A stretch of 43,274 nt of DNA from Methanobacteriota archaeon (GTDB lineage: Archaea > Thermoplasmatota > Poseidoniia > Poseidoniales > Poseidoniaceae), in the NCBI GenBank assembly GCA_002729095.1, contig PBWC01000045.1, positions 23,519 through 66,792 on the forward strand. Direction: 5' to 3'. The notes under the pieces were generated by a model. That model did no database searches. It had not been told where the DNA came from and worked only from the letters and a program-made list of their open reading frames with translations. This document shows, in pieces, positions 30,527 to 33,045 of this stretch (the stretch's first letter is position 1; the number at the start of each line of letters is the position of its first letter). Made by a program: the position numbers and the translations under genes.

Positions 30527-32161
30527 ATGGTGAATAATGTTCCACGACCCCCAACTCCTGTTAATGAACCAGTTCTTGGCTATCTCCCCGGAAGCCCTGA
30601 AAGAATTGCATTGAAGGAAGAACTGACAAGACAATCTAATGAAATAGTTGAGATTCCTTGTATTATCAACGGGGTTGAGGTTTACACTAATGATGTTGTA
30701 GAACAGGTAATGCCTCACAACCACGGCCATGTCATCGCAAGAGTACACATGGCAGGAAAAAACGAAGTCGATGACGCAATTAAAGCTTCTTTGGATGCTC
30801 ATGATGCTTGGTCTAGTATGGCTTGGGAAGCAAGGTGTGCAATTTTCCTCAAGGCGAGTGAATTACTCAGGGGAGAATACCGCGCCAAAATTAATGCTAG
30901 TACTATGATTAACCAGTCTAAAACCTGTCATCAAGCCGAGATTGATTCAGCTTGTGAATTAATCGACTTTTGGAGATTCAACACATTCTATGCTAGACAA
31001 ATATACGAAGATCTACAACCTTCTGTTTCTCCATCCAGCATGTGGAATTCAAGTGAAGTGAGGCCTCTAGAGGGATTTGTTTTCTCTGTTACACCTTTCA
31101 ATTTCAGTAGCATTGCTGCAAATCTTCCATCCTCTGCTGCGATAATGGGTAATACCGGTGTTTGGAAACCAAGCAGAAACTCCTACCTATCAAATTACTA
31201 TTTGATGAGGTTAATGATGGATGCTGGATTACCAGATGGAGTTATTAATTTCATACCAGGAAAGGCTAGTTTGGTGGGAGAAATTTGCTTATCGCACCCT
31301 ATGTTAGCAGGTATTCACTTCACTGGATCAACCGCTGTATTTAGAAAAATGTGGAAGGATGTTGCAGATAATCTTCCCAATATGCGATCCTATCCTAGAA
31401 TTGTAGGAGAAACCGGAGGAAAAGATTTCATAGTTGCTCACCCAAATTGTGATGAAAAAGCATTAATTGTCGCTCTAATAAGGGGTGCTTTTGAATTTCA
31501 GGGACAGAAATGTAGCGCTGCAAGCCGAGCATATATTCCTAAATCTGTTTGGGAAAATATCAGTGAAGAATATTGCGCCGAGGTTTCAAAAATTTCCGTT
31601 GGAGACCCCAAAGATTTCTCTAATTTTATGTCCGCAGTAATTGATAGAAAATCATTCGATAATATATGTGGATATATTGACCGTGCTAATTCAGATAGCG
31701 GTTGTGAAATAGTGACAGGAGGAGAATATGATGACTCCCATGGATATTTCATAAACCCAACAACTATTATCTGTTCAGACCCTAAATATGAGTCGATGAG
31801 CGAAGAGATTTTTGGCCCTGTTTTATCGATTTACATTTATCCTGATAATGAATTTGAAGAAGTCCTAAAGTTGTGTGATGAAACTTCTGAATATGCTTTG
31901 ACTGGCTCGATATTTGCTACTAAGAGAGAAGATATTGTAACTGCTCAAAAAGCACTAAAGTATTCATCCGGAAATTTCTACATCAATGACAAGCCAACAG
32001 GTGCAGTGGTTGGTCAACAGCCATTTGGTGGAGCCAGAGGTAGCGGAACAAACGACAAAGCTGGTTCTCCACTAAATCTTCTTAGATGGGTCAGCCCACG
32101 TTCCATTAAGGAGACTTTCGCACCTCCGCATGATTGGACTTACGGCTTCCTAAATGAGTGA
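30527..32161 (+). CDS. 1-pyrroline-5-carboxylate dehydrogenase (ALDH4A1-like)
   Basis: ALDH motifs FTGSTAVFRKMWK, GETGGKDFIVAHP, FEFQGQKCSAASRAYIP; extended similarity to ALDH4A1 from memory (NEPVLGYLPGSPER, FYINDKPTGAVVGQQPFGGARGSGTNDKAG). Confidence 0.92.
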   Translation: MVNNVPRPPTPVNEPVLGYLPGSPERIALKEELTRQSNEIVEIPCIINGVEVYTNDVVEQVMPHNHGHVIARVHMAGKNEVDDAIKASLDAHDAWSSMAWEARCAIFLKASELLRGEYRAKINASTMINQSKTCHQAEIDSACELIDFWRFNTFYARQIYEDLQPSVSPSSMWNSSEVRPLEGFVFSVTPFNFSSIAANLPSSAAIMGNTGVWKPSRNSYLSNYYLMRLMMDAGLPDGVINFIPGKASLVGEICLSHPMLAGIHFTGSTAVFRKMWKDVADNLPNMRSYPRIVGETGGKDFIVAHPNCDEKALIVALIRGAFEFQGQKCSAASRAYIPKSVWENISEEYCAEVSKISVGDPKDFSNFMSAVIDRKSFDNICGYIDRANSDSGCEIVTGGEYDDSHGYFINPTTIICSDPKYESMSEEIFGPVLSIYIYPDNEFEEVLKLCDETSEYALTGSIFATKREDIVTAQKALKYSSGNFYINDKPTGAVVGQQPFGGARGSGTNDKAGSPLNLLRWVSPRSIKETFAPPHDWTYGFLNE

Positions 32162-32466
32162 AGTGGCAACTTCTTACTTTTATCGACTCTACTTACAGAG
32201 TCTACCAGTAACCTAGGTTTCATTCCATTACTTATCAAAGATATAAGCCACCATCCCAGAGATAGTAACGGTGTTGAAATTAACATAGTTAGACAAAGAA
32301 AAACAATGATGTTTGATTTTGAAAGGGACCAAGAATAAATTATTGTGAATAACATTACAATCACAAAATAAATTCTAGATGCCTCGCTTGGAGTTTGCCA
32401 TCCCCTGTGGTCAAGCCTTGGAGCAAACAGAAATTCAAACACGCCCATGACAAAAAGTCCCTGCAA
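32140..32466 (-). CDS. Small predicted membrane protein
   Basis: 108 aa with hydrophobic helices; no family recognised; overlaps the 3' end of the preceding convergent gene. Confidence 0.5.
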   Translation of the reverse strand: MQGLFVMGVFEFLFAPRLDHRGWQTPSEASRIYFVIVMLFTIIYSWSLSKSNIIVFLCLTMLISTPLLSLGWWLISLISNGMKPRLLVDSVSRVDKSKKLPLHSFRKP

Positions 32467-32523: not shown

Positions 32524-32530
32524 GATAGAC

Positions 32531-32598
32531 CCCGCTGTGATGACTGCTTTAGCCGAATGCTGAAAATTCAGTGACGAGTGATGGGCGAACTGAGCGGG
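32531..32598 (+). ncRNA. Intergenic box C/D guide sRNA (candidate)
   Basis: Stem CCCGC/GCGGG; C box GUGAUGA (32537-32543); D' CUGA (32560-32563) or CCGA; C' GUGACGA (32571-32577); 12-nt guide GUGAUGGGCGAA (32578-32589); D box CUGA (32590-32593). Confidence 0.75.
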
Positions 32599-32649
32599 AC
32601 CTTAATTCAAAATAATCTTCAATAGATTGATTATTATCTAATATGTGGC

Positions 32650-33045
32650 ATGTACATGAGCAAGAGTATATTCATCAAATTTGTATCAGAACCTAGAAAT
32701 GATCCGATTAAATCCATCGTCGGGTTAGCATGTGCTGCCCAAGCAATAAACGATGGGCATAATGTGAGTGTTTTTTTCGCTGCGGCAGGAACAAGATTAC
32801 TGGATTCTAACTATCTTGAAGAATTGGAAAAAGAGCTCGGAGCGGACGTTCCTATGGTTGCTAATTTCATGAATACTATTAGCTCTGGAGCTACACTATA
32901 CTGCTCTTTTGCATCAGTCAAGGCAGTACTAGGATATAGTGAAGGTGATGAAGCACTAGTAGTATCTGATGATCAAATAAAATGGAGTGGCCCACCTGGA
33001 GTGATAAGTTTGGCAACCGCTTCTGAAATTCAACTTACTTACTAA
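32650..33045 (+). CDS. DsrE/DsrF-like family protein
   Basis: IVGLACAAQAINDGHNVSVFFAAAGTRLL..GATLYCSFASVKAVLG typical of the DsrE fold. Confidence 0.65.
   Translation: MYMSKSIFIKFVSEPRNDPIKSIVGLACAAQAINDGHNVSVFFAAAGTRLLDSNYLEELEKELGADVPMVANFMNTISSGATLYCSFASVKAVLGYSEGDEALVVSDDQIKWSGPPGVISLATASEIQLTY

Follow-up and report, generated by a model that had tools for sequence, protein, structure and literature searches.

A predicted box C/D sRNA of Poseidoniaceae that probably guides 2'-O-methylation of 16S rRNA C1402 and possibly also of 23S rRNA C2558

In Escherichia coli, C1402 of the 16S rRNA carries m4Cm; the nucleotide is modified by RsmI and RsmH, which are stand-alone proteins without a guide RNA. 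In eukaryotes, the equivalent nucleotide of the 18S rRNA is served by guide RNAs, namely snR70 for Cm1639 in yeast and U43 for Cm1703 in human. Cm at this site is documented for yeast, human, and Arabidopsis, where AtU43 guides Cm1645 (PMC11542601). The 16S rRNA of Pyrococcus abyssi is 2'-O-methylated at the same nucleotide, listed as Cm1376 (PMC7005279), which can be equated with C1402 because it lies two positions before the modified C1378, i.e., position 1404 according to PMC2584109. Position 1378 of P. abyssi corresponds to that of an unknown modification in other archaea (PMC7005279), and a numbering that differs from that of PMC7005279 gives the P. abyssi equivalent of C1402 as Cm1369 (PMC11542601). 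In Haloferax volcanii, a modification of C is reported at 1404, with 1402 unmodified (PMC2584109), which counts against the C1402 reading. According to PMC4644070, C/D sRNAs are few in mesophilic archaea, with 7 in Methanococcus maripaludis compared to more than 100 in some hyperthermophiles; the literature searched contained nothing on C/D sRNAs in Poseidoniales.

The window, i.e., the entire stretch of 43,274 nucleotides that was analysed, contains an intergenic element that is strongly supported as a predicted box C/D sRNA gene (32531–32598, + strand); its source is an uncultured marine archaeon of the family Poseidoniaceae (Candidatus Poseidoniales). The initial annotation had located the terminal stem of 5 bp, the spacings, and every box except D' correctly. 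Guide positions are numbered upstream from box D. The features are as follows:

32531–32598, + strand: predicted core of the box C/D sRNA transcript; single copy in 33 of the 36 genomes of the genus
32531–32535, + strand: 5' arm of the terminal stem (CCCGC), pairs with 32594–32598; covaries in relatives
32537–32543, + strand: box C (GUGAUGA); RUGAUGA in every aligned copy
32544–32552, + strand: C–D' spacer of 9 nt (CUGCUUUAG); variable within the genus, without a consistent rRNA target
32553–32556, + strand: box D' (CCGA); invariant in the genus
32557–32570, + strand: D'–C' loop with a weak CUG/CAG stem; most Thalassarchaeaceae copies have a longer hairpin instead
32571–32577, + strand: box C' (GUGACGA); nearly invariant in 30 genus copies
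32578–32589, + strand: D guide of 12 nt (GUGAUGGGCGAA); positions 2–11 the same in 46 of 46 copies; pairs with 16S C1400–A1408 and 23S 2554–2564
32590–32593, + strand: box D (CUGA); invariant
32594–32598, + strand: 3' arm of the terminal stem (GCGGG), the partner of 32531–32535

The full layout thus reads CCCGC U GUGAUGA CUGCUUUAG CCGA AUGCUGAAAAUUCA GUGACGA GUGAUGGGCGAA CUGA GCGGG. It combines the hallmarks of the class: boxes C (RUGAUGA) and D (CUGA) bordered by a terminal stem (k-turn), internal boxes C' and D' that are conserved in the genus, and a C'–D spacing of 12 nt, with rRNA complementarity that places G32585 opposite the N+5 target position in a Watson-Crick (G-C) pair at both sites. 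At the position of the U.U pair, D' (CCGA) and C' (UGACGA) each have a C. When both strands of the window were scanned for the consensus layout of a C box, a C' box followed after exactly 12 nt by a D box, and a stem of at least 4 bp, this site was the sole match; 300 order-2 Markov copies gave no match. The CTGA at 32560–32563, originally taken for box D', was ruled out by variation among the copies, many of which read CTGT; the CCGA at 32553–32556 does not vary in the genus.

The C/C'/D'/D layout and the 12-nt D guide are shared with the C/D sRNAs of Pyrococcus (the sR families of Rfam, snoPyro_CD), but the sRNA of the window falls below every Rfam cut-off. No family exceeded its gathering cut-off in the window, the top match being sR2 (23.1 bits against 42), and an assignment to a known Rfam family of C/D RNAs was dropped. 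The eukaryotic guides of the C1402-equivalent site resemble the present sRNA as box C/D guides directed to the equivalent nucleotide; the latter differs in its archaeal size and box layout and in a second possible target in 23S rRNA. With its wide conservation, the sRNA adds a new member to a guide RNA class that is well known.

The element is conserved as an RNA across the relatives. With the 68-nt element as query, it was found once in each of the 33 genus genomes, with partial matches in the sister family. Among 30 genus copies, the mean frequency of the majority base is 0.935 for the element and 0.996 for the stretch comprising C', guide, and D, as opposed to 0.62 and 0.51 for the flanks. 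The initial annotation had proposed conservation in relatives as a check; boxes and guide are indeed kept while the flanks drift, and the element is more than a product of chance. The terminal stem is paired in 105 of 105 cells, and two of its five pairs have changed on both sides. Variation in the guide is confined to positions 1 and 12; the intervening positions 2–11 (UGAUGGGCGA) are the same in each of the 46 copies, which is consistent with the reported recognition limit of about 10 nt. A covariance model based on 21 copies detected the element in 267 of the 347 genomes in the class, 266 of them in Poseidoniales, and in 22 of 25 genera; the named records with the element are overwhelmingly Poseidoniales (marine group II). 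Most copies from Thalassarchaeaceae have a hairpin in the D'–C' loop and degenerate C' and D' boxes, but the 12-nt D guide is exact.

The partner proteins of the class are encoded by the relatives. Fibrillarin is present in all nine high-quality relatives and in 18 of the 21 genomes that comprise these and further relatives and the MAG of the window, and nop5 adjoins the fibrillarin gene in the loci read from the relatives; the MAG of the window (83.7% complete) had no match to fibrillarin. The gene upstream of the sRNA encodes an aldehyde dehydrogenase in 28 of 30 genus loci; in the window, its 3' end is overlapped on the opposite strand by a 108-aa ORF (32140–32466, − strand). Downstream lies a 131-aa ORF (32650–33045) described earlier as DsrE-like; Pfam gave no match for it, and among the genus loci checked, just one other has it after the sRNA. 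In family f5 (L239–L252), a TTTAATTA/TTTATTTT-like motif lies about 25–30 nt upstream of the sRNA and is possibly an archaeal promoter; no equally clear motif was seen upstream of the window copy.

Since the MAG of the window lacks both 16S and 23S rRNA, targets were sought in the rRNAs of close relatives. Their 16S rRNA reads ACACACCGCCCGUCAAACC and pairs with guide positions 3–11 at C1400–A1408, with a U.G wobble at position 8 (U8.G1405) and a mismatch of A2 with C1399; the N+5 rule points to C1402, as the initial annotation had proposed. The predicted site and its single G.U pair were borne out, but the duplex comprises 9 bp instead of the 10 bp expected, because the 16S rRNA of the clade reads CGCCCGUCAAACC (CGCCCGUCAA rather than the anticipated CGCCCGUCAC). 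The alternative site beside the A-loop of 23S rRNA likewise proved to be present. The 23S rRNA of the relatives reads UUCGCCCAUUAAAAGG (or AAAGGGG) and pairs with guide positions 1–11, with a G.U at position 10, which gives a duplex of 11 bp with N+5 at C2558. The clade sequence (UUCGCCCAUUAAAAGGG or UUCGCCCAUUAAAGGGG) contains the UUCGCCCAU proposed in the initial annotation.

The C1402 and C2558 sites rank first for the guide in 16S and 23S rRNA, respectively. The 16S score was attained by 112 of 3000 shuffled guides and the 23S score by 16, with no guide attaining the two together, although the results for the two sites are not independent because both share CGCCC. RNAduplex energies for positions 2–11 are −16.6 (16S) and −15.2 kcal/mol (23S), and duplexes of 8–10 bp suffice for high activity, with about 10 recognized nucleotides as the limit (Yang 2016, as cited in PMC7089733). 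Opposite guide position 8, 16S has G and 23S has A; opposite position 10, 16S has C and 23S has U. The U8 and G10 of the Poseidoniales guide pair with both targets. We estimate the probability that the sRNA of Poseidoniaceae guides 2'-O-methylation of 16S C1402, and possibly also of 23S C2558, at roughly three in four. In this mechanism, the C/D and C'/D' motifs would serve as assembly sites for L7Ae, Nop5, and fibrillarin; with the guide (UGAUGGGCGA) paired to helix 44 of 16S rRNA (C1400–A1408, E. coli numbers), fibrillarin would 2'-O-methylate C1402, a nucleotide of the decoding centre. The same guide, which should pair about equally well, may also direct the methylation of C2558 beside the A-loop. 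Expression of the sRNA, assembly of the RNP, and methylation are predicted here from sequence.

A comparison across Thermoplasmatota helps to weigh the two sites. The guide pattern (Y8, R10) occurs in 203 of 394 genomes and 77 of 157 genera, in some cases with one mismatch, whereas the reversed control pattern had no matches in the same search. The inspected loci are mostly canonical C/D sRNAs; matches in bacteria (L131, L188) and one without a C box (L254) were excluded. The genomes are mostly MAGs, and the family labels (f1, f2, etc.) are those of the genome search tool. A guide with U8 and G10, which fits both targets, is found in nearly all listed Poseidoniales, in f4, f5, f7, f11, f37, f45, f49, and part of f6, and in others. 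C8 combined with G10, which fits only 16S because C8 forms a G-C pair with G1405 and mismatches the A of 23S, characterizes f17, f24, f27, f30, f33, f35, f38, f47, f48, f50, f51, and one genus of Poseidoniaceae. A10, the better fit to 23S, occurs in f16 and part of f6.

The most informative case is found in two families outside Poseidoniales, f47 (G573) and f35 (G436), whose 16S rRNA reads CGCCUGUC (C1404U) and whose guide reads GACAGGCGA (G7A), while the CGCCC of 23S is unchanged; a second genome of f47 (G566) has a guide like that of G573, but no 16S rRNA was recovered. This covariation is a compensatory change of guide and 16S rRNA, in what may be one or two events, as would be expected of a Cm1402 guide. 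Because the guide change follows 16S while 23S stays, C1402 is the better-supported target. The same covariation at guide position 7 makes it very improbable that the sRNA is directed to a tRNA or mRNA or that its RNP is chiefly a chaperone of rRNA folding, even if such targets and roles are described for archaeal C/D sRNAs (PMC7994747, PMC4644070). It also speaks against 23S C2558 as the main target with a secondary pairing to 16S. The 23S duplex is the longest, as it includes positions 1–2, and has the lowest chance rate (16 of 3000), and the A10 of f16 breaks the pairing with 16S and keeps that with 23S, with a D' guide that pairs with the adjacent 23S CGUGAGAUG, as does that of f7. However, in the literature consulted, C1402 has a precedent and C2558 has none, and a primary role of the 23S site seems unlikely.

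Whether the 23S pairing matters alongside C1402 is more finely balanced. At slightly less than even odds, the sRNA guides only the modification of 16S, the complementarity to 23S being coincidental and U8 an inherited wobble. In Archaeoglobaceae, the guide of L178 is identical (U8/G10) but mismatches the local 23S (UUCGCCAAUU) at position 7, so that only 16S fits, assuming that it is of the standard type; U8 can apparently do without a partner in 23S. In L158 and L178, the guide occupies the opposite half of the sRNA, before the D' box, in the order AUGAUGA (box C), guide, CUGA, GCG, GUGAUGA. The loss of the 23S match via C8 in many families and the lack of reports of Nm at 2558 in the archaeal literature consulted (PMC12605026, PMC2584109, PMC4644070) point in the same direction. 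By contrast, A2 and G10 are invariant in the examined Poseidoniales copies although A2 pairs with 23S alone, and U8 is retained although C8 would pair better with 16S (−18.4 against −16.6 kcal/mol). The listed Poseidoniales have kept both U8 and G10, with G220 (C8) as the sole exception, which fits selection for both targets but may also reflect inertia, as in L178. A selection of the single 12-nt guide for both helix 44 of 16S (C1402) and the flank of the 23S A-loop (C2558) is accordingly a tentative proposition, somewhat less probable than a guide for 16S alone. The accompanying idea that sister lineages specialized to a single target (C8 to 16S, A10 to 23S) is conceivable but doubtful to a similar degree.

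The second half of the sRNA presents a different picture. The upstream guide had been proposed to pair with a 23S sequence (UUAAAGCGG), which is absent from the 23S rRNA of the clade; the 9-nt spacer (CUGCUUUAG), shorter than the usual 12 nt, varies and has no consistent target in the 16S and 23S rRNA of Poseidoniaceae. It is probably not a working guide in the window copy, where the D' side is probably structural. This does not bar membership in the class, because accepted archaeal sRNAs include some with empty D' guides (PMC4644070). Thus, the initial interpretation as an archaeal box C/D sRNA with two candidate targets of the D guide stands, and that of the upstream guide falls. Across families, the D' guides differ and the D guide is the retained half. 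The partner in f7 and f16 is 23S CGUGAGAUG, which lies downstream of the C2558 site by a few nucleotides; in f30 it is 23S AGCUGGGUUUA (11 bp, by inspection), and in f5, f24, f27, and f47 it is 16S AAGGCUGAA, using Poseidoniales rRNA as proxy. Several families of Thermoplasmatota share a D' guide that recurs as UUCAGCCUUA or UUUAGCCUUA (L284, L286, L287, L288, L246, and L249) and also pairs with 16S AAGGCUGAA.

The retention of the guide throughout the phylum suggests that Cm1402 belongs to a type of site that is kept when most rRNA methylation is not. The C1402 site is served by proteins in E. coli and by an assigned snoRNA in Arabidopsis, and an archaeal guide would extend this comparison. 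The variation between U8 and C8 and between G10 and A10 provides a natural test of how guides gain, share, and switch their targets.
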